40,210 nucleotides of DNA from Oscillibacter sp. Lineage in GTDB: Bacteria; Bacillota; Clostridia; Oscillospirales; Oscillospiraceae. Below the pieces are notes generated by a model. The model saw only the letters and a list, made by a program, of their open reading frames with translations, ran no database searches and had not been told where the DNA came from. The position numbers and the translations under genes were made by a program. Below, piece after piece: positions 1,882-15,877 of this stretch. The stretch lies in NCBI GenBank assembly GCA_017547085.1, contig JAFYQM010000058.1:1-40210 (forward strand), written 5' to 3'. Within the stretch, counting starts at the first letter, position 1. The number at the start of each line of letters is the position of its first letter.

Positions 1882-3093
1882 TCAGCGCTTGGTAGCGGAA
1901 GAATTTACGATGAATGCATCCAGTACAACTGCTACCACCAGAATAAGGCCCTGAATGATCAGACGGGTAAAGGTCTCCGCACCAATCAGGTACATACCAT
2001 TGGTCAGGGAGCCCATGACCAGAGCGCCCAGCAGAACGCCCCAGATATTGCCCTTGCCGCCGGAAAGGCTGGCGCCGCCCAGCACGCAGGCTGCGATGGA
2101 GTTCATCATGATGGAGTCGTCAACAGAGGAAACGGACACACTCTGCAGACGGGAAGCTGCGATCATACCGGCGAAAGCAAACACAGCGCCCGAAATGATG
2201 AATGCTGCCCACTTGGTATTTTTTACGCTGATGCCCGCACGGCGGACAGCCTCAGGGTTGCCGCCCAGTGCATACAGATGCACACCAAAGCGGGTCTGGG
2301 TCAAAATATATGCAAATACTGCGAGAAGAGCAATCAGCAGCAGAACCGCGAGGTTCAGGCCTTTGTATTTTCTCATAATTTCCAGAACGATGATGCCGCC
2401 AGTAAGGACCCCCACCGTAGGAAACAGCACTTTATTGGCAAATTTAACAGGAAGATTGTTCTTCTTGGCCTGAGAATAAGATTGATAAGACAGGAAGAAC
2501 AGGAATGCAACACCGACTGCCAGAACAATATAAGACAGCCAAGTGGGGAGATAGATCGTAGTGAACACCGTCAAGGAGTGATTAACCAGAGAAATCTGTG
2601 TAGATTCACTTAACAACAGAAGCAGCAGGCCTTCCAAAGCCATCTGGCCGCCCATGGTGATGATAAATGCCGGAGCGCCAAACTGTGTTACAATCCAACC
2701 TTGGACCGCACCGATCAACGCACCAAAAGCAATGCAAGCTGCAAAGCCAACGATAAAGGGTAGGCCCTTATTGATGCAGAAAATCGCAGCAATGGTTGCG
2801 GACACAGCACTGGAGGCAGCGCAGGAAAGATCCAGTTCACCGTGCAGTAGTACCAGAAACAGACCGATGGCCATGATACCCATATTCACGATCTGCACAG
2901 ACAGGGTCGTTAGGTTGCGAGGGCTGACAAACGCAGGATTCAGGATGGTAAAAATCACCCAGATCACAACAAGAGCGAAAATAACAGGGAGCATACGCAG
3001 AGGTCCATTCAGCGCCTCCATTACGCGCAGCTTTTTATTGGGCTTAATCTCCGTGGTACGGCTTAAAACCACGCTTTTCTTCTGTTCATCCAT
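1882..3093 (-). CDS. Sugar-type ABC transporter permease (RbsC/BPD_transp_2 family)
   Basis: Membrane permease of about 403 residues with many hydrophobic segments and the RbsC-type hallmarks: N-terminal FTILNPAFVSPRNLTTL, the loop LYALGGNPEAVRRAGISV, and the C-terminal AACVLGGASLSGGKGNIWG followed by GALVMGSLTNG. It would form the inner-membrane channel with the two ATPases and the lipoprotein SBP of the same operon. The start chosen is the ATG at 3093 (MDEQKKS), seven bases after GGAGG; an in-frame start 30 bases further upstream has no ribosome site. It is longer than a minimal RbsC (about 320 residues) because of an insertion after residue 200 (SQAKKNNLPVKFANK) between membrane segments. 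Substrate unknown. Confidence 0.9.
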   Translation of the reverse strand: MDEQKKSVVLSRTTEIKPNKKLRVMEALNGPLRMLPVIFALVVIWVIFTILNPAFVSPRNLTTLSVQIVNMGIMAIGLFLVLLHGELDLSCAASSAVSATIAAIFCINKGLPFIVGFAACIAFGALIGAVQGWIVTQFGAPAFIITMGGQMALEGLLLLLLSESTQISLVNHSLTVFTTIYLPTWLSYIVLAVGVAFLFFLSYQSYSQAKKNNLPVKFANKVLFPTVGVLTGGIIVLEIMRKYKGLNLAVLLLIALLAVFAYILTQTRFGVHLYALGGNPEAVRRAGISVKNTKWAAFIISGAVFAFAGMIAASRLQSVSVSSVDDSIMMNSIAACVLGGASLSGGKGNIWGVLLGALVMGSLTNGMYLIGAETFTRLIIQGLILVVAVVLDAFIVNSSATKR

Positions 3094-3152
3094 AATTTGA
3101 CCTCCAGCATAAGCAATCAGCAATGTTCATTCGTGAGAAAAAAGGTTTCGGT

Positions 3153-3186
3153 GTTCCCCGCCCCCTCTTACGAGGGAGCGGGGAAC
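3153..3186 (-). other. Intercistronic stem-loop after the SBP gene
   Basis: Inverted repeat GTTCCCCGC/GCGGGGAAC with an inner CCCTC/GAGGG extension, between the SBP stop and the permease start. A run of T appears about 12 bases later on the minus strand. Such hairpins commonly raise SBP mRNA over permease mRNA by partial termination or 3'-end protection. Confidence 0.65.
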
Positions 3187-3192
3187 AGAAAA

Positions 3193-4359
3193 TTACTTCA
3201 GCGTGTTGGCAATGGCGTCAATGTCTGCCTGAGAAGCAACACCCATGTCAACGATCAGTTCCTTCATGTTGTCCTTGGTAATCAACAGTGCGGGGATGGA
3301 AATGGTGGGGATACCGTCATTCATAAAGTTGTTGTTGGTGGAGCTGTTGACCAGATCCATGGGATACTCGCCGGTAGCCAGATAGGTGGCAACGATCTTT
3401 GCCATGGTAGCGCCCATCGTCTCATAGTCGGGCATGATATCGCCTTCCTGCCAGCCTTCCTGAACGTGGGCCAGACCCTGCATGGTAACGTCGCAGCCGC
3501 CCAGAACGTGGACGTCGCCCACCAGCCCCTGCTCATTCAGAGCAGCCAGAACACCGGCGTTCAGGTCATCGTTGTTGGTGATTACGATGTCGATATCATT
3601 ACCGGTCTGGGTCAGCATCTGCTCGGCAGGACCCTGAGCGCTTGCAGCGGACCAGCTATCAGTCTGGACATTGAAAACGACCTCAGCCTTGCCTTCAGAT
3701 TCCCAACGCTTAAACGCCTCTTCATAAACAGCGGAGAGCTCATAGTAGAAGTTGGAGTCGGGACCGCCGATGTAAGCAATCTTGTAGGGATAGCCGGAAG
3801 CGTCGCTGATGATGTTTTCTTCCATGTAATCCACATATGCCTTTGCGATCATATCAAAAGGCATGGTCATGAAGATGGGGACTTCAGCGCCAAAGGGCGT
3901 GTGGCACATGCTGGCGAAGGGAACACCTTCAGCGTTCAGCACGTTCACGGAACCAGCAGCCTGCTCTTCTTCTGCGGGGATGAAAATCATAAAGTCGCAA
4001 CCACTGGAAATCGCAGCCTCGACCTGCTGCAGCTGTTTCTGGGCGTCGCCTTCGGCGTCGACCATCTTCATCTCAACATTAGGAGCATATTTGCTCAGAT
4101 ACTCCTGAATAAAGGGACCGTCAAAGGTTTCCCAGCGGGGAGTAGCGCTGTCCGGATACATAAAGTAAACAGTAGCTTCGCCATCGAAGATCACATCGCC
4201 GGAGGGAGCGGGGGCCTTTTCGCCACTCTGCTCAGCGGCAGGAGCCTTCGTCTCTTCCTTTTCAGGGGCAGGGTCTTCCTTGGCGCCGCAGCCGGCGAAC
4301 AGGCTGACTACCATGCACAGTGCCATCAGCAGAGACAGAATCTTACTCATCTTCTTCAT
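3193..4359 (-). CDS. Lipoprotein solute-binding protein, RbsB-type (periplasmic-binding type 1)
   Basis: A 388-residue secreted lipoprotein. The N-terminus is Lys-Lys followed by a hydrophobic stretch and a lipobox LFAGC with the lipidated Cys at residue 24, then an acidic Pro/Glu/Ala linker. The mature part has type 1 periplasmic-binding features such as FIPAEEEQAAGSVNVLN, a TNNDDLNAGVLAALNEQGL segment and GGCDVTMQGLAHVQEG, the pattern of ribose/galactose-type binding proteins. It captures the substrate outside the membrane for the importer encoded by neighbouring genes. The start ATG is preceded by AGGAGG. Unusually for these operons, the SBP gene lies after the ATPase genes and before the permease. 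Ligand cannot be deduced. Confidence 0.9.
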   Translation of the reverse strand: MKKMSKILSLLMALCMVVSLFAGCGAKEDPAPEKEETKAPAAEQSGEKAPAPSGDVIFDGEATVYFMYPDSATPRWETFDGPFIQEYLSKYAPNVEMKMVDAEGDAQKQLQQVEAAISSGCDFMIFIPAEEEQAAGSVNVLNAEGVPFASMCHTPFGAEVPIFMTMPFDMIAKAYVDYMEENIISDASGYPYKIAYIGGPDSNFYYELSAVYEEAFKRWESEGKAEVVFNVQTDSWSAASAQGPAEQMLTQTGNDIDIVITNNDDLNAGVLAALNEQGLVGDVHVLGGCDVTMQGLAHVQEGWQEGDIMPDYETMGATMAKIVATYLATGEYPMDLVNSSTNNNFMNDGIPTISIPALLITKDNMKELIVDMGVASQADIDAIANTLK

Positions 4360-4399
4360 TACAAAACCTCCTAATTATTCTATATCTACTAAGTCTTGC

Positions 4400-5137
4400 T
4401 TAGCCGATACCGGTAATATGTGCGACCAGATCGTCGCGGGTAAATTCTCCGCCCTTCAGAATGCAGGCGATCTCGCCGATACGCAGGACCACTACACGGT
4501 CAGCAGATTTTACAACCTCTTCCAGATCCTGAGAAATCACCACAACAGCCTTGCCTTCATCGCGCAGGCGGCGGGTCAGACGGGATACCTGCCGCCGCTG
4601 GATCACACCCAACGCTGCGGTAGGCTCGTCCATCAGGATCACCTTTCCAGGCAGCAGCAGGGACTTTGCGATGGCGACTGCCTGCCGCTGACCGCCGGAG
4701 CGGGTGCCGACCGGAGCCTGTGGATTGGGAACGTTGGAGCCGATCTCTTCAAACAGGTCTCTGGATCTGCGCTCCATATCCTCGTGGCGCAAATGACCGA
4801 AACTGGTCAGCTCGTTGCCCAAGAAAATATTCTGGAATGCATTCAGGTTATTGCAGAGGGCCAGATCCTGATAGACCGTAAAAATGCCCATCTGCTGTGC
4901 CTTCTTCGGATTGCTGATATTGACAGGTGCACTCTCGAAGAAGATCTGACTCTCCGAATTCGCATGGACCGCACCGGAAAGGATATTCACCAGAGTGGAC
5001 TTGCCTGCGCCGTTATCGCCAACGATGAACAGCAGCTCACCTTCATGGATATCCAGATCAATATTGTTCAGTGCGCGGACGCCGCCGTAGTTTTTGGACA
5101 ACCCCCGCAAACTGATGATCGGTGTTTCATTTCTCAT
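4400..5137 (-). CDS. Single-domain sugar-type ABC ATPase, second of a split pair
   Basis: A 245-residue ATPase of the RbsA/FrcA type. Walker A is GDNGAGKST, the Q-loop region TVYQDLALC, and Walker B VILMDEPTAALG. Two positions are altered: the signature begins RSGGQ instead of LSGGQ, and the switch histidine is Gln (VVISQDLEEV). In family terms the H-loop change predicts weak or no hydrolysis at that site. With its upstream partner, which keeps the histidine, it would form an asymmetric ATPase pair resembling the two halves of RbsA. The ATG at 5137 has GGAGA upstream and lies 11 bases after the stop of the partner gene, indicating coupled translation. Confidence 0.9.
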   Translation of the reverse strand: MRNETPIISLRGLSKNYGGVRALNNIDLDIHEGELLFIVGDNGAGKSTLVNILSGAVHANSESQIFFESAPVNISNPKKAQQMGIFTVYQDLALCNNLNAFQNIFLGNELTSFGHLRHEDMERRSRDLFEEIGSNVPNPQAPVGTRSGGQRQAVAIAKSLLLPGKVILMDEPTAALGVIQRRQVSRLTRRLRDEGKAVVVISQDLEEVVKSADRVVVLRIGEIACILKGGEFTRDDLVAHITGIG

Positions 5138-5148
5138 AACGCGTCTCC

Positions 5149-5931
5149 TTATTCGTCTTCTTCCATGAAGGTATTGGAACCGGTAATTTCAGCCACAACG
5201 CGTTCTTTGGTAATCTCAGGTCTGGAGATCTCCGCCACCTTCTCGCCCAGGCGGAAAACGACCACTCTGTCACACACCGCAAACACCTCGGCAAGGTCAT
5301 GGGAAACGACCACAACGCCCACGTTTTTGCTGCGCAGATTCAGGATTAGCTTGCCCACCTGCTCACGCTGGACCAAGCCCAGATTTGCCAGCGGCTCATC
5401 CAGCAACACGATTTTGGGAGAACCCAGCATGGCACGGGCAATGGCAACCGCCTGACGCTGACCACCGGACAGATCGCTCACCTTCGCACGGACAGACGTA
5501 AGCTCAATGCCCATCTCGTCCAGGCACTCACGGGCAATGCGCTCCATCTCGCTCTCATTGAGCCGACCGAACTTGTTTACGATCTCTCTGCCCAGAAACA
5601 GATTCTGGACCACGTCGAGGTTATCGCACAGTGCTAAATCCTGATAAACGGTCTGGATACCAAGATTCACAGGGTCAAGAGTATTGGAGATCGTGATGGT
5701 CTTACCTTCAAATTCAATCTCACTCTGCTGGGGGATATTAACGCCGGAAATCACCTTCAGGAAGGTGGACTTTCCTGCACCGTTATCACCGACGAGGGCA
5801 ATCACCTCTCCCGGATAGATGTCCATATCAACATCGATCAGCGCCTGAACGCCACCAAAATACTGATGCACATGACGAAGGGACATGATCGGCGCAACGT
5901 TTTCAATGACTTCTGCTGTATTCGTATTCAT
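5149..5931 (-). CDS. Single-domain sugar-type ABC ATPase, first of a split pair
   Basis: A 260-residue ATPase with a complete motif set: Walker A GDNGAGKST, Q-loop TVYQDLALC, signature LSGGQRQAVAIA, Walker B IVLLDEPLANLG and switch histidine in VVVSHDLAEV. It is the catalytically complete member of the pair. Most RbsABC-type systems carry one fused two-domain ATPase of about 500 residues (as the distal importer in this window does), whereas here the two halves are separate genes. The ATG at 5931 is chosen because GGTGAT sits at proper distance; a GTG four codons upstream has no ribosome site. Energises the importer at the cytoplasmic face. Confidence 0.92.
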   Translation of the reverse strand: MNTNTAEVIENVAPIMSLRHVHQYFGGVQALIDVDMDIYPGEVIALVGDNGAGKSTFLKVISGVNIPQQSEIEFEGKTITISNTLDPVNLGIQTVYQDLALCDNLDVVQNLFLGREIVNKFGRLNESEMERIARECLDEMGIELTSVRAKVSDLSGGQRQAVAIARAMLGSPKIVLLDEPLANLGLVQREQVGKLILNLRSKNVGVVVVSHDLAEVFAVCDRVVVFRLGEKVAEISRPEITKERVVAEITGSNTFMEEDE

Positions 5932-6011
5932 CTCTCGTATCACCTCTGGATCTTGTTTTCACGGGTTGCTCCATGCTGTGCGGTGGATAAAGCAGAAATT
6001 TATTGGATCTA

Positions 6012-6500
6012 TTAGACTCTGTCCTTCTTGGGAATGGTAGTAAACTTGGTCTCGCCCAGCAGGACCTTGATATCGATGTCTGCGCTGGGATAGCCGGCGA
6101 TCAGAACAGCCTGTGCGTGAATTCCTACGTCACCGGTCTGCACAACAGCCTTGCAGCGGTTACGCAGATCATAATACTCAGGTGCATAGTTAATCTGGCG
6201 GACCTTATTTACGCCGAACAGTTCGACCAGAGTGCCGTAATCCTTGGGATTCTGGTCCGGCATATCCTCGGTGATGATAGCGCCCTCGAAATCACCTGCC
6301 TCCACCAGTGTGCGGACAACATCCTCAAAAGAGGGGGAGCCGGTAACCACTTCCAGATCCAGATACTCAACACTGGGGTCCAGAGGATACAGCGCCTTGG
6401 AACAGGTGCCGCTGCCGGAATCAGCAATAAACAGCATTTCGCCATGGCGGATGGATGCAACGATGGCTGCCAGTCTCTCGTTCAGAATTCTTCTTTTCAT
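6012..6500 (-). CDS. RbsD/FucU-family sugar mutarotase-like protein
   Basis: A 162-residue cytoplasmic protein. The N-terminal pattern LNERLAAIVASIRHGEM with IADSGSG matches the active-site region of D-ribose pyranase RbsD/FucU (catalytic His in the RHG stretch, Asp in ADSG), and the C-terminal AVVQTGDVGIHAQAVLIAG matches the conserved end of the family. Members interconvert cyclic forms of ribose or fucose after import. The family is normally about 140 residues, so this one carries small insertions and could have a different sugar-like substrate. It is the first gene after the ANTAR-type leader, with AGGAGG seven bases before the ATG, and it leads the importer operon. Its presence supports a sugar or sugar derivative as the transported compound. 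Confidence 0.82.
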   Translation of the reverse strand: MKRRILNERLAAIVASIRHGEMLFIADSGSGTCSKALYPLDPSVEYLDLEVVTGSPSFEDVVRTLVEAGDFEGAIITEDMPDQNPKDYGTLVELFGVNKVRQINYAPEYYDLRNRCKAVVQTGDVGIHAQAVLIAGYPSADIDIKVLLGETKFTTIPKKDRV

Positions 6501-6650: not shown

Positions 6651-6693
6651 AGAGAAAAGAAGAGATCCGTTTTTGCACCTCGTATAAGTGATG

Positions 6694-6742
6694 AAAAACA
6701 AAAACGGTCGCTCTCATCCCTTGTGGGACGAAAGCAACCGTT
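6694..6742 (-). terminator. Leader terminator, predicted target of ANTAR antitermination
   Basis: On the minus strand an 18-bp uninterrupted stem (starting AACGGTTGCTTTCG, loop ACAA, G-U pairs allowed) is followed directly by TTTTTGTTTTT-type U-rich sequence. It lies in the untranslated leader about 190 bases before the first gene. Its 5' strand contains the loop and 3' arm of the upstream P2 hairpin, so the two structures exclude each other. Confidence 0.88.
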
Positions 6743-6789
6743 ACTTTCTGCTCTGTTTCTTTTACGAAGCTACCATAACCTCGTAAAAG
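6730..6789 (-). promoter_or_regulatory. Tandem-hairpin ANTAR antiterminator (P1 6759-6789, P2 6730-6748)
   Basis: On the minus strand P1 is a 12- to 13-bp hairpin beginning CTTTTACGAGG with loop ATGGTA. P2 is GAAAGT/GCTTTC with loop ACGGTT. Both hexaloops fit A-x-x-G-x-x, both have one bulged base at the 5' side of the loop, and both loops are followed by GCTT. Ten bases separate the hairpins. This is the architecture bound by ANTAR-domain dimers (EutV, NasR type). P2 overlaps the 5' half of the terminator, and an ANTAR regulator is encoded about 2 kb upstream. Confidence 0.85.
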
Positions 6790-6824
6790 CAATATTTAAT
6801 TAAACCGTTAAATTATGTATTAAT

Positions 6825-6852
6825 AATATAACAGTCTTGCACAACTTGTCAA
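6825..6852 (-). promoter_or_regulatory. Sigma-A-type promoter of the proximal importer operon
   Basis: On the minus strand TTGACA (6852-6847), a 16-base spacer and TATATT (6830-6825). Transcription would start near 6818, about 30 bases before hairpin P1. The promoter lies between the kinase stop codon and the leader hairpins, so the importer operon has its own transcript. Confidence 0.8.
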
Positions 6853-6914: not shown

Positions 6915-8756
6915 TCAACCATTCAGTTCCGGAGAAACTACCGGCATAATGGTAGGCCGGCGAAAATAGATCCAGGTTTCTGTTCCGTTGGATCTGCAAT
7001 AACGCAGTTCGCCGTGGAGACTGGCAACAATGCTTTTCACGATGGAAATACCCACACTGTCCGTACGGTCCAGATTAAAATCCTCCTGAATACCGACACC
7101 ATTGTCCCGCACACAGATTTTGATATCCATGCCGGTATTCTGTGTGATCACGGTGATAACATTGCCCTCGCTTCTGCCGGAAAACGCATGCTTAATACAA
7201 TTGCTGATCAGCTCGTTGATAACCAGCGCCATGGAGACTGCGTTATCATACGGCAGAGAAACGTCCTCCAGTTCCAGCTGGATCGTCACGCCCTCCGTTT
7301 CATAGAGCCGCACGATCTCCTGCGTGATATTCTTCAGATTCACAACATTCTTGCCATACCAGTCCCGGCAAAGCAGTGAATGCACATAGGCAATGCTCTT
7401 TACCCGGTTGATCGCAGTTTCCAGAACATTTCTCACATACCGTTCAGACGCCCCGCTTCCATCCGGTTTCTGTAAGTACAGCAGGTTTACGATGGTCTGC
7501 AAATTGTTCTTGATACGGTGGTGACTTTCCTGCAGCAGCACCGATTTACCCAGCAGACGAGATGTCTCGATAGCAATGCTGATCTCCTTGACAAACATTT
7601 TTGCATAAACAGAGAGCTGTCTGACATCTTTTCTGGCATGGGTGAATATTGCCTGCACCAGTGCCTTTCTATTGCCGGTAAAATGGAGCGGATAACATAG
7701 CATCAGCTCTACTACATTATTTTTATCAAAAACTTCATCAGGCGCAGGATCACCCCGCCTCCAGACCGCATCCTCACCACGGGCAATTACTTCCGCAACG
7801 GTCGCCGGTGTCATATATTCCTTTCTTGCTGACGGATCCGCATCCATGACCGTGAACCGGTCGTCGTCCATCATATAGATTACAACGCCGGACGCGTCCA
7901 GCGCCTTTTCCATATCTTTCAGAATGTATTCCAGCACGCGCTTCAGCTCATAATCCGACGTGACCATATCGCCCATATTGGCAATGGATTCCATAATGGA
8001 TATTGCCTCCGAACTGGAACCGATTTGAGTGATCTTCCTCCAGCCCGACAACAGGCTTGCCACTTCTCTCGGGTCTTTTCTGACGTTCTCCGTCAGAAAA
8101 GTTCCCTTCACGGTACCATTGTCAAACACAGAGATGCGGTCACTGAGCCGGAGTGCATCCTCAAAGTTATTGGTGATATAGATGACTCCGCAGCCTTTTC
8201 CTCTTAGCCAGTCCAACACACCGGGAATCTTCACGCGGGTCTCTTCTCCCAGAAAGGTCATACTGTCCAGAAACACGGCAACAGGTGGCAGCATGGCGCA
8301 GATGTGGAGAATCTCCACACGGCGCAGCTCATCACCGGTCATATCGGCCATGCGCTTGTTCAGATCCACATGCAGTCCGGTTTCTCTCATCAGTTCAAAG
8401 CACTTTTGGGTCATCCGCTGTCTGGGAGCAAAAAAAGGCATCCGCGCTGAAAGGAAAATCTGTTCTACTGGGGAAATGCTTTGCGAGACAGCAGTTTCCG
8501 TTTCCATGACCTGAATACTTTTGTTGATATCCTTAAGCGCATCATGAGATACGCCCGCGATGAAGCATTCTCCGGAGCTGCTCCTGATCTTGTTCTGGAA
8601 CAGATGCACCAGTCCCCACTCGTCATTGGCAGAGGTGGACAGGATGGCATGGGTTTCCCCTGCACGCAGGTCAAAGTTGATATCATGCAGAACCTTTCCC
8701 TCTTCTGAGACGGAGGACCAGTTGCTGATCTTCATCAAAATCTCACCTTTGTTCAT
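6915..8756 (-). CDS. Histidine kinase with an N-terminal degenerate ABC-ATPase domain
   Basis: About 613 residues, no membrane segment. Residues 1-240 have the fold order of a sugar-importer ABC ATPase but with every catalytic motif broken: Walker A region is STSANDEWG, the signature is MTGDELRRVE, Walker B is VAVFLDSMTF without the Glu, and the switch His is Asn (ITNNFED). Residues about 247-392 look GAF-like. Then comes a HisKA_2-type H-box (ESHHRIKNNLQ, His near 412-413) and a HATPase domain (NELISNCIKHAF, VRDNGVGI, SVGISIVKSIV). It is translated 26 bases after the ANTAR regulator, its likely partner. The start is taken at the ATG at 8756 behind GAGGTGGAG; an ATG at 8735 with AAAGGTGAG is equally plausible. 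The sensing role of the dead ATPase domain is inference. Confidence 0.88.
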   Translation of the reverse strand: MNKGEILMKISNWSSVSEEGKVLHDINFDLRAGETHAILSTSANDEWGLVHLFQNKIRSSSGECFIAGVSHDALKDINKSIQVMETETAVSQSISPVEQIFLSARMPFFAPRQRMTQKCFELMRETGLHVDLNKRMADMTGDELRRVEILHICAMLPPVAVFLDSMTFLGEETRVKIPGVLDWLRGKGCGVIYITNNFEDALRLSDRISVFDNGTVKGTFLTENVRKDPREVASLLSGWRKITQIGSSSEAISIMESIANMGDMVTSDYELKRVLEYILKDMEKALDASGVVIYMMDDDRFTVMDADPSARKEYMTPATVAEVIARGEDAVWRRGDPAPDEVFDKNNVVELMLCYPLHFTGNRKALVQAIFTHARKDVRQLSVYAKMFVKEISIAIETSRLLGKSVLLQESHHRIKNNLQTIVNLLYLQKPDGSGASERYVRNVLETAINRVKSIAYVHSLLCRDWYGKNVVNLKNITQEIVRLYETEGVTIQLELEDVSLPYDNAVSMALVINELISNCIKHAFSGRSEGNVITVITQNTGMDIKICVRDNGVGIQEDFNLDRTDSVGISIVKSIVASLHGELRYCRSNGTETWIYFRRPTIMPVVSPELNG

Positions 8757-8782
8757 CCGCTCCACCTCACACTCCAACATGG

Positions 8783-9358
8783 TTATTTCAGCAGTTCGCT
8801 CTTTTTGATGATCTCAACCGCAATAGCCGCCAGTTTTTTGTTGGTGTCCTTACTCTTCTTCTGCAGCGCCCGCATAGCTTCCGGCTCGGAAAGGCCAAAA
8901 TCCTCCATCAGGATTCCCTTTGCCCTCTCCACCAGTTTCCGTTCATCCAGTCGGGTAACTGCCTGGTCTCGTTCCTTTTCCACCTTGGTATAATCCTTAT
9001 GCCGCTCCACTGCGATTTGCAGTACAGACCGGATCTCATATTCATCCACCGGCTTTTGCAGATATCCGAATACACCGGCAGCACCTGCCCGCTTCGCAAT
9101 GGTCTCATCACGGAAACCAGTAATGACGACTGCCGGCACATTCAGCGTCTGATGGATCTTTTCAATGGCGGAGATTCCATCCATACCGGGCAGGTTGATG
9201 TCCATCAAAATCACATCCGGCTTTAATTGCAGGACCTGCTCCACCGCAACAGTACCATCTGCCGCAGTACCGACCACCGTATGCCCGCTTGCCGCCACCA
9301 TCTTTTTGAAGCCCAGCAGAACAATCGGCTCATCCTCAGCAATAAAGACTCTCAACAT
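8783..9358 (-). CDS. Response regulator with ANTAR RNA-binding output domain
   Basis: 191 residues. Residues 1-120 form a receiver domain (acidic pair in IAEDEP, phosphoacceptor Asp53 in LMDINLPG, conserved Lys in LQKPVDEYE). A short coiled linker (VEKERDQAVTRLDERK) leads into an ANTAR domain at about 133-187 (KLVERAKGILMEDFGLSE, EAMRALQKKS, KLAAIAVEI). ANTAR proteins bind paired RNA hairpins and prevent termination. Such a hairpin pair is present in the leader of the downstream importer operon. The ATG at 9358 starts directly at the receiver fold; an in-frame TTG seven codons upstream is an alternative. The domain layout equals EutV, the ethanolamine regulator, and a EutH-like gene lies just upstream. 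Confidence 0.93.
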   Translation of the reverse strand: MLRVFIAEDEPIVLLGFKKMVAASGHTVVGTAADGTVAVEQVLQLKPDVILMDINLPGMDGISAIEKIHQTLNVPAVVITGFRDETIAKRAGAAGVFGYLQKPVDEYEIRSVLQIAVERHKDYTKVEKERDQAVTRLDERKLVERAKGILMEDFGLSEPEAMRALQKKSKDTNKKLAAIAVEIIKKSELLK

Positions 9359-9427
9359 GCTCCAACACTCCCGATCCAAACTTCTTCTTTTCTCCTGTTT
9401 CAGCTATGGTCTTATCTTTTTAAGTCC

Positions 9428-12047: not shown

Positions 12048-13145
12048 TTACTTGTGATTGGTCGTATCCAGAATGACGGCGATCAAAACGATCACACCCT
12101 TGAAGACCATCTGCAGGTCAGAGGACACGCCCAGCAGCGTCAGCAGGTTGTTCAGAACGCCGATCAACAGAATACCAAGAATGGTACCAGTAATCTTACC
12201 GGAGCCACCGGACATGCTGGTGCCGCCCAAAACAACTGCCGCGATGGCGTCGGTCTCACCGCCGACGTTCAACTGAGGAACGCCGGAGCCGAGACGAGCC
12301 GCAGCCAGAACGCCGCCGAGAGCCGCCAGCAGGCTGGAAATCATGTACACAAGGATAATGTTGCGGTCCACACGGATACCGGAGAAACGGGCTGCTTCAG
12401 GGTTTCCGCCCAGCGCATAGACCTGACGGCCATACACGCTGTGCTCCAGAATGTACCAGCAGACGAAGAATGCAACCACGAAGACGCAGATCAGATAGCT
12501 CATGCCCTTTCCGGTGATAGTCAGCCACACGGCGAAGGCAATAATGAGGAGCAGCAGCACCGTGCTGAACAGCTTTTTGCCCTTCTGCTCGCTGCGCAGG
12601 AATGCAAACACCACATACACAGCACACAGTGCCAGAATGATCAGCGTGATGGACATCGGCAGCTTATCTGTGCCAAAATTGTTAAATTTCAAATTGGTAA
12701 TGGGCTTTGCAGCGGCACCGGTGACCACATAAGCCAAACCTCTCCAGATGTTCTGGGATGCCAGTGTGGCAATAAAGGGGGGCACGCGGAACTTGGTCAC
12801 GACAACACCCACAGCCAAACCGTTGATCACGCCGAAAGCAAGTGCCAGTGCAACAGACAGGAAAATACCCAGACTATTGATCGTCATGGCAACGATAACA
12901 CCGGACATTGCCAGAATACTGGCCATAGCCAGATCGATACCGCCGGTCAGAATGGCAAATGTCATACCAAGCGCCATCACGCCGGTAGGCGCATTGGACT
13001 TCAGAATGTTGATCAAGTTATTAGGAAGCAGGAACGTCTTGCTGAGAACTGCAGAGATGATCACCAGCAGGATCAGGCCGAACGCAGCAGTATAGTCTTT
13101 CCAATTAAACTTGGCCTTCTTTTCAAGAGTGTTTCCTTTACTCAT
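12048..13145 (-). CDS. Sugar-type ABC transporter permease (RbsC family), distal importer
   Basis: 365 residues, polytopic. Family marks are KTFLLPNNLINILKSNAPTG, LTGGIDLAMASILAMSGV, the loop VYALGGNPEAARFSGIRV and AAVVLGGTSMSGGSGKITG. A long segment in the middle (SEQKGKKLFSTVLLLLIIAF) adds membrane-spanning sequence relative to E. coli RbsC. It pairs with the two-domain ATPase 24 bases upstream and with the lipoprotein SBP at the head of the operon. GGAGG precedes the ATG. Substrate unknown. Confidence 0.93.
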   Translation of the reverse strand: MSKGNTLEKKAKFNWKDYTAAFGLILLVIISAVLSKTFLLPNNLINILKSNAPTGVMALGMTFAILTGGIDLAMASILAMSGVIVAMTINSLGIFLSVALALAFGVINGLAVGVVVTKFRVPPFIATLASQNIWRGLAYVVTGAAAKPITNLKFNNFGTDKLPMSITLIILALCAVYVVFAFLRSEQKGKKLFSTVLLLLIIAFAVWLTITGKGMSYLICVFVVAFFVCWYILEHSVYGRQVYALGGNPEAARFSGIRVDRNIILVYMISSLLAALGGVLAAARLGSGVPQLNVGGETDAIAAVVLGGTSMSGGSGKITGTILGILLIGVLNNLLTLLGVSSDLQMVFKGVIVLIAVILDTTNHK

Positions 13146-13169
13146 CTTTTCTCTCCTCCAAATTCCTGC

Positions 13170-14702
13170 TCAAGCATCAGCCTTGCCGGCAACACCCAGA
13201 GCATACTGTGCCAGATTCACTTCGTTTGCGTCGCCCGCATTCAGGTTTGCAACGATCTCACCCTCGCACATAACAAGAATTCGGTCGCTGATTCCCAAAA
13301 TTTCGGGAAGTTCACCGGAAATAACAATAACGCCCTTTCCGGCATCTGCCAGATCACGGAGCATTTTATAAATCTCTGCCTTTGCACCCACGTCGATGCC
13401 GCGGGTAGGTTCGTCCATAATCAATACTTCAGGCTCATTCAGCATCCACTTCGCCAGAACAACTTTCTGCTGGTTGCCTCCAGAAAGCTGCTTGACCAGA
13501 TAGCTGGAATCGGGCACCTTCACACGGAAATCCTGAATGGATTTATCCACCGCCACAGCTTCACCCGCGTGATCGATCTTGCCCATCTTTGCACGCTTAT
13601 TCAGAGATGCCAGCGCAATATTGCTGCGCACAGAGTGCATCAGCACAAGGCCGGTCTTCTTACGATCCTCCGTGACCAGCGCAATTTTCTGCTTGGTAGC
13701 ATCCTGCGTGTCACGAATGACCTTCTTCTGGCCGTGGAGATACAGCTCGCCGGTACTCTTGATGGCTTTTCCCTCAAAAATAGAGGTCATCAGTTCCGTA
13801 CGGCCGGCGCCCACGATACCGTAGATACCGAGAATTTCGCCTGCATACAGTTCAAATGCGGCATCCTTCACAACCACCTTGCGGGAATCAGCGTTGTCAT
13901 AAACCGTCCAGTTCTTCACGGACAGGAGTTCCTCGCCGCGGGGCTTTCCGCTTTTGGGCGGGAACATTTCAGAGAGTTCTCGACCGACCATGCCGGTCAC
14001 TATGTCATGCTGGGTGACCTCGGAAACGGGGCGGTCCCAGACATATTTTCCGTCTTTTAAAACTGCAACGTGATCACAGCTGCGGAAGATTTCGTCCATC
14101 TTGTGGGTGACGAAAATCATGGTCACCTGACGTTCCTTCAGCTTCTCGATCACTTCAAACAAAAGCTTGATCTCTGCCTCAGACAGAGAACTGGTCGCCT
14201 CATCGAAAATGAGAACTTTCGGGTTTTTGGAAAGGGCTTTTGCGATCTCCACCATCTGCCGTTTGCTCACGGTCAGATCGCGGATCAAAGTATGGGTATT
14301 GATATCGTCCAGATCCAGAGAGTCCAGCATCTCGCGGGCCATCTGGTGCATGGTCTTCCAGTCCACCTTGCCCCGTTTGTTGGGCATCTGGCTCAGGAAC
14401 ATATTTTCGGCAACGGACATGTCGTTGATCAGGTTCAACTCCTGGTGGATGATAACAACTCCATGATTTTCCGCATCTCTCGTGCCGCTGAACTTCAGTT
14501 CTTCTCCGTCCAAAAAGATCTGACCGGAAAACTTCCCTTGGGGATGCACGCCGGCAACGATCTTACCCAACGTGGACTTACCGGCGCCGTTTTCGCCGCA
14601 AAGAGCGGTCATCTTTCCGTCAGGAAAAACGATGGAGACTTCCTCCAACGCACGAACTCCGGGAAAGTCAATGGTAATATTCTTGACTTCAAGTACCGCC
14701 AT
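13170..14702 (-). CDS. Two-domain sugar-type ABC ATPase (RbsA/XylG family)
   Basis: 510 residues, the normal length for RbsA-type ATPases. The first half has Walker A GENGAGKST, signature region LTVSKRQMVEIA, Walker B VLIFDEATSSL and switch His in FVTHKMDEI. The second half has the typically altered P-loop GIVGAGRTEL, a good LSGGNQQKVVLA signature and Walker B VLIMDEPTRGID. This asymmetry is normal for the family. It energises the distal importer at the cytoplasmic face of the permease. The ATG follows AAGGAGAA. A strong hairpin separates it from the SBP gene, so it is probably expressed at a lower level than the SBP. Confidence 0.95.
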   Translation of the reverse strand: MAVLEVKNITIDFPGVRALEEVSIVFPDGKMTALCGENGAGKSTLGKIVAGVHPQGKFSGQIFLDGEELKFSGTRDAENHGVVIIHQELNLINDMSVAENMFLSQMPNKRGKVDWKTMHQMAREMLDSLDLDDINTHTLIRDLTVSKRQMVEIAKALSKNPKVLIFDEATSSLSEAEIKLLFEVIEKLKERQVTMIFVTHKMDEIFRSCDHVAVLKDGKYVWDRPVSEVTQHDIVTGMVGRELSEMFPPKSGKPRGEELLSVKNWTVYDNADSRKVVVKDAAFELYAGEILGIYGIVGAGRTELMTSIFEGKAIKSTGELYLHGQKKVIRDTQDATKQKIALVTEDRKKTGLVLMHSVRSNIALASLNKRAKMGKIDHAGEAVAVDKSIQDFRVKVPDSSYLVKQLSGGNQQKVVLAKWMLNEPEVLIMDEPTRGIDVGAKAEIYKMLRDLADAGKGVIVISGELPEILGISDRILVMCEGEIVANLNAGDANEVNLAQYALGVAGKADA

Positions 14703-14731
14703 CTTCTTTTCTCCTTCTTTTCTCTCAAATA

Positions 14732-14783
14732 AAAGCAGCCGTCAAACGCATCCGCCACAGCGAAAACGTCCGACGGCTGCTTT
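14732..14783 (-). terminator. Attenuator-like hairpin between SBP and ATPase genes
   Basis: A 12-bp inverted repeat AAAGCAGCCGTC/GACGGCTGCTTT around a 28-base interior, with TTTTATTT following on the minus strand. It lies between the SBP stop and the ATPase start. Partial termination here would give excess SBP transcript, a common arrangement in importer operons. Confidence 0.7.
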
Positions 14784-14818
14784 CAATTTTCCTCAGTAAT
14801 CAGTGATTTTTCTACTGC

Positions 14819-15877
14819 TTACTTCAACAGATCGGGATACTTGAGCGCAACCTGCTCCTCGATGTTATCCTTAGTAACCAGAACCATGGGCGAATACTTA
14901 ATCATGACTTCGCCATCGTCGGTAGTCAGAACCTCATCGTACTCGACCTCTTCACCCTTGATGATCTGCATGGCCATATCAACGGTCACAATGCCCTGCT
15001 CAATGGCACCCTTGTTAACAACCATGAAGTTCTCCACGCCACTCAGAATCAGCTCGGCAGAATCCTGATCCCAGTCAGCACCGAAGAAATAGATATCATT
15101 TTCCTTGCCGACATTCTGGGCAGCCTTATAGCAGCCGTGAGCCATGGTATCGTTGTTGCAGAAAACAGCCTTGATATCGGGATGCTGCACCAGCAGTGCT
15201 TCCATGGTCTGCATGGCCAGCTGGCGGTCCCAGTTCTGATGCATCTGGGTCAGCACGTTCTCCATGTTGGAATACTTTGCGATGGTCTCCTCAGCAGCCT
15301 GCGTGATGGTCTCAGCACACTCGTCGCCGAGGCTGCCGCCGATAACAGCAACCTTTGCTTTCTCATCGGTGCCGAAGACTTCTGCAAACTTCTCGACCTG
15401 CATCTGACCAACCTGATAACTGTTGGAGTCACTACGATAAGGAACGTTGATGCCACGGATCTGTGCATTGAGATTGATAACGGGGATACCGGCATCGTTA
15501 CAGGCGCTGATGATGTTAACGCATGCGTCGGAACGAGCAGGCTCGATGACGATCAGGTCAACACCCTGCTGGATGTAGGCCTCAACCTGCTGCATCTGCA
15601 CGGCAGCGTCATTCTCGCAGGCAACCCACTCGACTTCCACGTTGCCCAGTTCGGCAGCGCGGGCCTTCATTGCATCGCAAACAAACATGTAGACGGCTTC
15701 CTTCAGGGTCATGCTGGTAACGCCGATTTTGTAGGTTTCTTTCTCCTCAACTGCAGGAGCCTCAGCTTCCTGCTTGGGAGCCTCTTCTTTCTCGGGGGCG
15801 GGTTCTTCCTTGGCGCCGCAAGCGACCATAGACAGAGCCATGATCAGAGCCAGGACCAGTGCGAAAAACTTCTTCAT
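14819..15877 (-). CDS. Lipoprotein solute-binding protein, RbsB-type, distal importer
   Basis: 352 residues. Basic N-terminus, hydrophobic stretch and lipobox MVAC with lipidated Cys at residue 20, then a Glu/Pro/Ala linker very similar to that of the proximal SBP (AKEEPAPEKEE against AKEDPAPEKEE). The mature part reads as a type 1 periplasmic-binding fold: YIQQGVDLIVIEPARSDA, IPVINLNAQI, VAVIGGSLGDE, AVFCNNDTMAHGCYKAAQN. The NND segment is the one that contacts sugar in ribose-binding proteins. It is the first gene of the distal operon, with AGGAGG six bases before the ATG and a consensus-like promoter about 170 bases upstream. Confidence 0.93.
   Translation of the reverse strand: MKKFFALVLALIMALSMVACGAKEEPAPEKEEAPKQEAEAPAVEEKETYKIGVTSMTLKEAVYMFVCDAMKARAAELGNVEVEWVACENDAAVQMQQVEAYIQQGVDLIVIEPARSDACVNIISACNDAGIPVINLNAQIRGINVPYRSDSNSYQVGQMQVEKFAEVFGTDEKAKVAVIGGSLGDECAETITQAAEETIAKYSNMENVLTQMHQNWDRQLAMQTMEALLVQHPDIKAVFCNNDTMAHGCYKAAQNVGKENDIYFFGADWDQDSAELILSGVENFMVVNKGAIEQGIVTVDMAMQIIKGEEVEYDEVLTTDDGEVMIKYSPMVLVTKDNIEEQVALKYPDLLK

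Follow-up and report, generated by a model that had tools for sequence, protein, structure and literature searches.

The window, i.e., the whole 40,210-nucleotide stretch of Oscillibacter sp. DNA analyzed here, carries on its reverse strand a series of genes coding, in the order of transcription, for EutH, a 162-aa ORF, a hydrolase-like ORF, a response regulator and a histidine kinase, followed after a gap of about 410 bp by RbsD/FucU, two ATPases, a lipoprotein and a permease. Between the EutH-type permease (11980-10877) and an ORF that by our own reading codes for a putative α/β-hydrolase-like protein (10310-9468) lies the 162-aa ORF, for which no significant family match was found. The response regulator (8783..9379; translation may in fact begin at the ATG at 9355) combines a receiver with an ANTAR domain (Pfam: Response_reg, 2.6e-25; ANTAR, 3.1e-19). 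The adjacent kinase gene (6915..8780) codes for a protein of 621 aa starting with the ATG at 8780; the initial annotation began at 8756, the next ATG, eight residues in. The first gene past the gap, which holds the leader described below, encodes an RbsD/FucU-type mutarotase (6012..6500; Pfam 2.2e-13); it is followed by two importer ATPases identified through Pfam, NCBIfam and an alignment of their ABC ATPase domains (hereinafter NBDs), namely a single-NBD version with intact motifs (5149..5943) and a single-NBD version with the switch His replaced by Gln (4400..5137), a XylF/ChvE-like substrate-binding lipoprotein (3193..4359; Pfam and NCBIfam), and an RbsC/GguB-type permease of 413 aa (1882..3123; BPD_transp_2, 2.3e-34; GguB, 8.4e-64). 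This importer has two separate single-NBD ATPases (4400-5943) and no fused RbsA, and the second of them (4400..5137) displays RSGGQ in place of LSGGQ as its signature. The initial annotation had placed the kinase between two RbsABC-type importers, and both are present: one directly downstream (1882-5943) and the other beyond the EutH gene (12048-15877).

The ORF, its domain matches and its relatives together define a kinase with the architecture pseudo-ABC NBD-GAF-HisKA_2-HATPase. The C-terminal HisKA_2 and HATPase domains (residues 418-607; 6960..7529) are both recovered past the Pfam cut-offs (HisKA_2, 4e-14; HATPase_c, 1.6e-10), and an eight-member alignment shows invariance of the H-box core HHRIKNNLQ, the N-box N/E/N residues and the G-box Gly residues, in keeping with the earlier description of the H-box and the ATP-binding domain as intact. 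By its H-box His, N-box and G-boxes, the protein is a HisKA_2 histidine kinase, predicted to autophosphorylate and to pass the phosphoryl group to the regulator. The GAF-like region (residues about 264-405; 7566..7991) is assigned through the kinase family alignment A2, in which a GAF domain is detected in seven of the eight members; in the window kinase itself the GAF match is sub-threshold in Pfam (E 0.089, residues 279-382). The highest 19-residue hydropathy of the window kinase is 1.64, attained in the NBD around Walker B, and the corresponding peaks of all 24 kinases of the family described below, judged by hydropathy only, range from 1.26 to 1.78. The usual cut-off for this measure is 1.6, and as 10 of the 24 kinases peak just above it, each in the NBD or the GAF region, solubility is here something that we infer: these kinases are probably soluble, and a soluble kinase could not by itself see an external sugar.

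The N-terminal region (residues about 16-250; 8031..8735) is a degenerate RbsA-like NBD, as indicated by PDB searches, NBD alignments and a tree. The Pfam ABC_tran model scores 19.5 of the 25 bits of its cut-off; NCBIfam ABC ATPase models match the window kinase with e-values down to 1.1e-14 (residues 29-234), the best being drrA, followed by YtfR. A phmmer search of the PDB with residues 1-266 as query (E<=0.01) recovered 95 distinct sequences spanning residues 29-239 (best match 4yer, 4.8e-11, residues 29-225), and each of the 60 listed among these 95 carries the name of an ABC transporter or of an ABC transporter ATPase. By these matches, residues 29-239 display homology to an ABC NBD over the whole domain, which bears out the ABC ATPase layout earlier proposed for this region; a chance NBD resemblance of residues 1-240 is ruled out by the NCBIfam and PDB matches and by relatives with intact motifs. 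Alignment against the N-terminal NBDs of RbsA places STSANDEWG at the position of the Walker A motif (GENGAGKST in RbsA), MTGDELRR at that of the signature (LSVAEQQx), FLDSM at that of Walker B (LLDEP; register uncertain by one residue, with the acidic pair broken in either register) and TNN at that of the switch (SHx), and the Q-loop Gln is also lost. Thus, the four losses claimed by the initial annotation, of Walker A, the signature, the Walker B Glu and the switch His, are all found as replacements in the RbsA alignments, and by these motifs the window protein would not qualify as an active ABC importer ATPase.

Searches for relatives established that this domain order recurs. At the level of the family, a search of 300 genomes returned the window's own gene alone, the 299 others being without a match at 1e-30. 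A single-protein search of 391 genomes of the class yielded one further full-length match (G446, 33% identity, E 8e-98); repeating the class search with profile A2 gave nothing beyond G446. A profile search (2 of 18 genomes) added G689, and a search of 297 genomes of the order gave the same two. At the phylum level, 9 of 398 genomes were matched, including the window's own and one with a kinase-only match (G1043), leaving seven full-length relatives; within the classes to which four of the seven belong, genomes with the kinase numbered 13 of 59, 2 of 17, 3 of 29 and 1 of 2 (counts in which genomes are partly shared and NBD-only matches left out). These large searches scored three or four candidates per genome, and their sensitivity is limited accordingly. 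The family examined comprises 24 genes in 22 genomes, by which number a one-off fusion or a gene wreck is ruled out.

Three of these genes are imperfect, namely a truncated third NBD-kinase in G1361 (G1361c; L093 8184-9488), which is without a regulator and has an RbsABC set at a distance of about 6 kb, one in G1410 that is cut by the contig end, and one in G1163 (L054 8566-10416) interrupted by an in-frame TAG within its NBD region. The permease in G1163 (L054 13924-14927) is likewise split into two ORFs, and the broken kinase and permease reflect either decay or sequence error. A pattern scan of genome contigs recovered one locus, matching residues 262-612 only and lacking the NBD; equivalent scans returned no close relative among viral contigs and no match covering 80% of the query among plasmids. 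The plasmid matches H1-H3, H5 and H18 are genes named "AAA family ATPase" that resemble the kinase half of the query; hence, other NTPase-kinase fusions exist. The window contig itself may be mis-binned: the bin has a contamination of 4.31% and the 299 other genomes of the family lack a kinase match at 1e-30. However, the GC content of the window (0.543) is like that of five stretches of other contigs (0.505-0.566), and the matter is immaterial to the kinase family, given the relatives in G446 and G689.

We analyzed the NBDs in a tree of 55 sequences, of which 21 were from kinases, with RbsA NBDs and the two window ATPases for comparison; the tree is midpoint-rooted, with other ABC families left out, and does not give the direction of change. 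A 98/94 branch separates all 21 kinase NBDs from the N-terminal (81/90) and C-terminal (100/100) NBDs of RbsA and from the two window ATPases. Within this group, the window and G446 NBDs are sisters (100/100), the former with a branch length of 2.14. The origin of the kinase NBD is better indicated by NCBIfam model matches than by the tree: in G967, G1259 and G1310 the ten best models are all those of RbsA-type importer ATPases, matching the N-terminal NBD, and in G1233 the five best models are RbsA-type. By these matches, the N-terminal NBD of RbsA-type importers is the nearest counterpart of the kinase NBDs that have decayed least. The kinase NBDs as a whole are homologous to those of the RbsA-type (CUT2) ATPases but differ from RbsA in grouping apart, in having no second NBD beside them and in being, for the most part, catalytically broken.

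The catalytic motifs are lost in a graded fashion. G967 keeps Walker A, the Q-loop, Walker B and the switch His, the sole such combination among the aligned kinases; Walker A and the DE pair are kept in G1259, G1310 and G1410; and Walker A is lost in the window protein, G446/G689, G1046 and G1392-G1394. Of the 21 kinase NBDs, 20 share with RbsA the catalytic Glu, 16 the Walker A Lys, 6 the Q-loop Gln, 4 the Walker B Asp and 1 the switch His. The initial description of a "dead" ATPase accordingly holds for the window NBD and not for the family, in which G967 keeps the key motifs and most members the Walker A Lys. Judged by these motifs, catalytic death is the end of a graded series, derived rather than family-defining, with the window protein among the most degraded members. 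In 12 of the 21, His stands in for the Walker B Asp (HE instead of DE), in 10 the switch His has become Lys, and in 15 a Trp follows two residues after the switch position; this newly conserved His/Lys/Trp set suggests constraint after catalytic loss. In the segment following the Q-loop, which in NBDs borders the coupling-helix groove, the RbsA Glu is kept in 19 of the 21 kinases and the Asn in 18, with the closing Gly kept in 2. That this segment is among the better-kept parts is suggestive. The pattern of retention is no proof of docking, because columns conserved in RbsA but distant from the nucleotide site have been lost too (15, 17, 22, 178 and 217, for example, are each kept in none of the 21); the kept residues may serve folding alone.

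The kinase belongs to a conserved cassette. A homologous regulator adjoins it in 22 of the 24 genes, the exceptions being the truncated G1361c and the contig-end G1410, and all 11 regulators scanned with Pfam contain both receiver and ANTAR domains. The most common order is kinase, regulator, gap, binding protein, RbsA and RbsC, with several loci having at the place of the binding protein an ORF with no BLAST match to the references used. The importer precedes the kinase in G446 and G689, the permease is upstream of the kinase in G1046, and G1362 has two permeases and no RbsA before its contig end. We looked for homologues without a neighboring importer, which would have spoken against the initial proposal, and none could be demonstrated: an RbsC-type permease is present in the fetched flank of 21 of the 24 genes, and the three with no permease in view (G1402, G1356 and G1410) are all at contig ends, with the flank of G1402 showing a binding protein and an RbsA running off the contig. 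The searched genomes have 4 to 57 PF02653 matches each, and against this background a permease lies within 6 kb of the kinase in 18 of 18 genomes vs 1.62 of 18 expected by chance, a figure that counts relatives that are not independent (11 chosen representatives still give a product of 10^-11.8).

G1361 contains two full-length kinases with two importers. The first kinase (G1361a) groups with those of G1317, G1364 and G1368 (100/99), as does its RbsA (100/100); the second (G1361b) clusters with those of the window, G446 and G1402 (98/97), and the RbsA that goes with it lacks any comparable partner. Over 15 loci, NBD and permease distances are correlated (r 0.78; 0 of 5000 permutations), and those of the kinase core and the regulator also track the permease (0.72 and 0.74, respectively). 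The value for the regulator means that the NBD-permease correlation shows only the cassette moving as a unit. The mean distance in these 15 loci is 0.678 for the NBD vs 0.496 for the kinase core.

The gap between the kinase gene and the importer operon holds, on the same strand, a candidate sigma-70-like promoter (6823..6852; TTGACA-18-TATTAT, by consensus match), followed by three structural elements recovered by scanning and folding: a hairpin P1 with the loop (U)AUGGU(A) (6759..6789), of a type also seen in other loci; a hairpin P2 with the loop (A)ACGGU(U) (6730..6748), which overlaps the terminator's 5′ arm; and an intrinsic terminator (6692..6745) exclusive with P2. When folded without the 3′ arm of the terminator, the leader forms P1 and P2 (-21.8 kcal/mol, z -3.45); when folded whole, it forms P1 and the terminator, and P2 gives way (-51.3 kcal/mol, z -10.6). 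Hairpins with a NAYGGYN loop occur at five sites on both strands of the window, in tandem only as P1/P2. Across 20 such gaps, the window included, a NAYGGYN hairpin with a stem of at least 6 is present in 13 (shuffle mean 0.16, maximum 3, 200 sets), a terminator in all 20 (shuffle mean 1.45, maximum 4, 20 sets), and a P2-type hairpin overlapping the terminator's 5′ arm in 9 by the scan. Six further P1 loops were placed by eye, with three stems well paired and three (G1362, G1371 and G1233) poorly paired in the register used; no P1 was found in the G1259 leader. Among the 17 aligned P1 rows the loop A is conserved in all and the fourth-position G in 14, and 101 of 119 cells are paired (shuffle mean 77.2, maximum 89, 2000 shuffles), a count that is partly circular because 11 of the 17 rows were chosen for having a stem. 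In G1392-G1394 (L099, L100 and L101), where about 900 bp separate the regulator from the importer, the leader places a pair of P1-type hairpins ahead of P2.

The loops of these hairpins can be read as having 5, 6 or 7 nucleotides, depending on the pairing of the outer couple. A search for 6-nt A1/G4 loops with at least 5 pairs recovered none of the leader hairpins, whereas the 5- and 7-nt loop searches did; 5-nt loops show a modest excess (11 hairpins with a stem of at least 6 over 20 gaps vs about 3.4 expected), and the excess became clear with the 7-nt NAYGGYN loops. At the gathering threshold, Rfam gave no match in the window. EutW is a HisKA_2-type kinase. ANTAR systems of the EutW/EutV kind have a two-hairpin leader, bearing A1/G4 loops, before a terminator (PMC3369931). 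Our systems are like EutW/EutV in joining a HisKA_2 kinase, a receiver-ANTAR regulator and a two-hairpin leader before a terminator, with the P1 loops here fitting a 7-nt N-AYGGY-N form, whose outer couple is sometimes pairable, vs hexaloops in the EutW/EutV-type leaders. They differ in that the input of the window kinase is an ABC NBD and a GAF domain, and in that the predicted target is an RbsABC-type importer operon. The leader, with its A1/G4 loops and paired hairpins before a terminator, fits the ANTAR rule, and the predicted target of the regulator is therefore the importer operon itself. Both the partner of the kinase, i.e., the ANTAR response regulator, and its output, the antitermination leader before the importer operon, were absent from the initial annotation.

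The identity of the domains, the grouping of the NBDs, their stepwise loss of catalysis, the conserved cassette and the layout of the leader are what was observed here. From these we propose, as a somewhat probable reading, that the kinase reads its importer, perhaps in preference to the free sugar, and controls the importer operon by antitermination via the ANTAR regulator. The wiring of kinase, ANTAR regulator, leader and importer is very likely: the kinase would phosphorylate the adjoining regulator, which in turn would stabilize P1 and P2 in the importer leader, such that the terminator would be prevented and, with the response of the predicted sign, the importer would be made. At the input end, much as the initial annotation suggested for the permease coupling helices, the NBD-like domain would dock where an NBD would, i.e., on the RbsC-type permease or its ATPase, and a loaded or cycling importer would set the activity of the kinase, with the GAF domain transmitting the signal or perhaps adding a cytosolic input. 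Docking on the importer is the economical reading because the NBD is of the importer type, is inherited jointly with an importer, and belongs to a kinase whose regulator has the leader of that importer as its predicted target. As judged from sequence, contact of the NBD with some part of the importer would be reasonably probable, and docking on the permease in particular has a little less than an even chance. We suggest more tentatively that an NBD-kinase dimer might replace the ATPase on the RbsC-type permease dimer, forming a transmembrane receptor together with the binding protein. Sensing by the window kinase may differ from that in its relatives, because its GAF domain is barely recognizable and its NBD very diverged.

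Alternatively, the kinase NBD might bind the importer ATPase as a pseudo-heterodimer, rather than the permease, and read its nucleotide state. MalT held by MalK provides a parallel for a regulator reading an importer ATPase, NBDs pair with NBDs, and the least decayed kinase NBDs are nearest to the N-terminal NBD of RbsA. However, the NBD dimer interface is built from Walker A, the signature and the acidic pair, all of which are broken in the window protein; moreover, the G1362 locus offers two permeases and no RbsA before the contig end. We hence regard this version as unlikely, even though PhoU, which would read PstB in a similar way, is reported to interact with it (PMC5775613). It is also rather improbable that sensing resides in the GAF domain, which would detect an imported sugar or metabolite, with the NBD-like domain being merely a dimerization scaffold. 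The presence of GAF in seven of eight members and the faster divergence of the NBD relative to the kinase core (0.678 vs 0.496, 15 loci) are compatible with this, but a scaffold leaves unexplained both the importer type of the NBD and the importer adjoining 21 of the 24 genes, and the GAF of the window kinase is itself sub-threshold. Finally, retention of the Walker A Lys (16 of 21) and the catalytic Glu (20 of 21) alongside loss of the Walker B Asp (kept in 4) and the switch His (kept in 1) is what might be expected of a domain sensing cytosolic ATP/ADP through binding without hydrolysis. The absence of Walker A excludes such a reading for the window protein, G446/G689, G1046 and G1392-G1394, and an energy sensor would need no adjoining importer, so that we consider it very improbable as an explanation.

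The proposed reading of an importer by its kinase has partial counterparts. In BceAB-BceS, the transporter and the kinase constitute one sensory unit that controls the expression of the transporter (PMC8534201, PMC10314905); BceS is of the intramembrane-sensing type (PMC7828314), and its TM helices touch BceB (PMC10314905). Unlike that system, ours pair an importer with a kinase that has an NBD of its own; by hydropathy, transmembrane sensor helices of the Bce type were not found in any of the 24 kinases. For the Pst system, the conformations of PstSCAB have been proposed as the signal read by PhoR/PhoU (PMC5775613), with PhoU, as depicted there, being a separate adaptor that links ATPase and kinase, whereas the kinases described here have the ATPase fold built in. 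In KsAmt5, a kinase is joined to a domain of the ammonium transporter type (PMC8534201), and it resembles our family in the conversion of a transporter part to a kinase input domain; however, the KsAmt5 domain is membrane-integral and ligand-binding, while the one described here is a motor domain without a known ligand site of its own. A literature search by title and start of abstract, with preprints and most subscription papers outside its coverage, found no description of an NBD-containing histidine kinase. To our knowledge, the Bce, Pst and KsAmt5 systems include no kinase that itself contains the ATPase fold.

Even for Bce and Pst, work continues on how a transporter is read by a kinase that has no external sensor of its own. 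With a motor fold fused to the kinase, transport state as the signal becomes testable with one kinase, one permease and an RNA output, and the decay series leading from G967 to the window could separate the needs of signaling from those of catalysis. If the NBD-kinase dimer does replace the ATPase on the permease, the same permease would be an importer when with its ATPase and a sensor when with the kinase, and the decay of the NBD would track its shift from a motor to a pure receptor adaptor. The NBD would also add a class of input domain to the histidine kinases.
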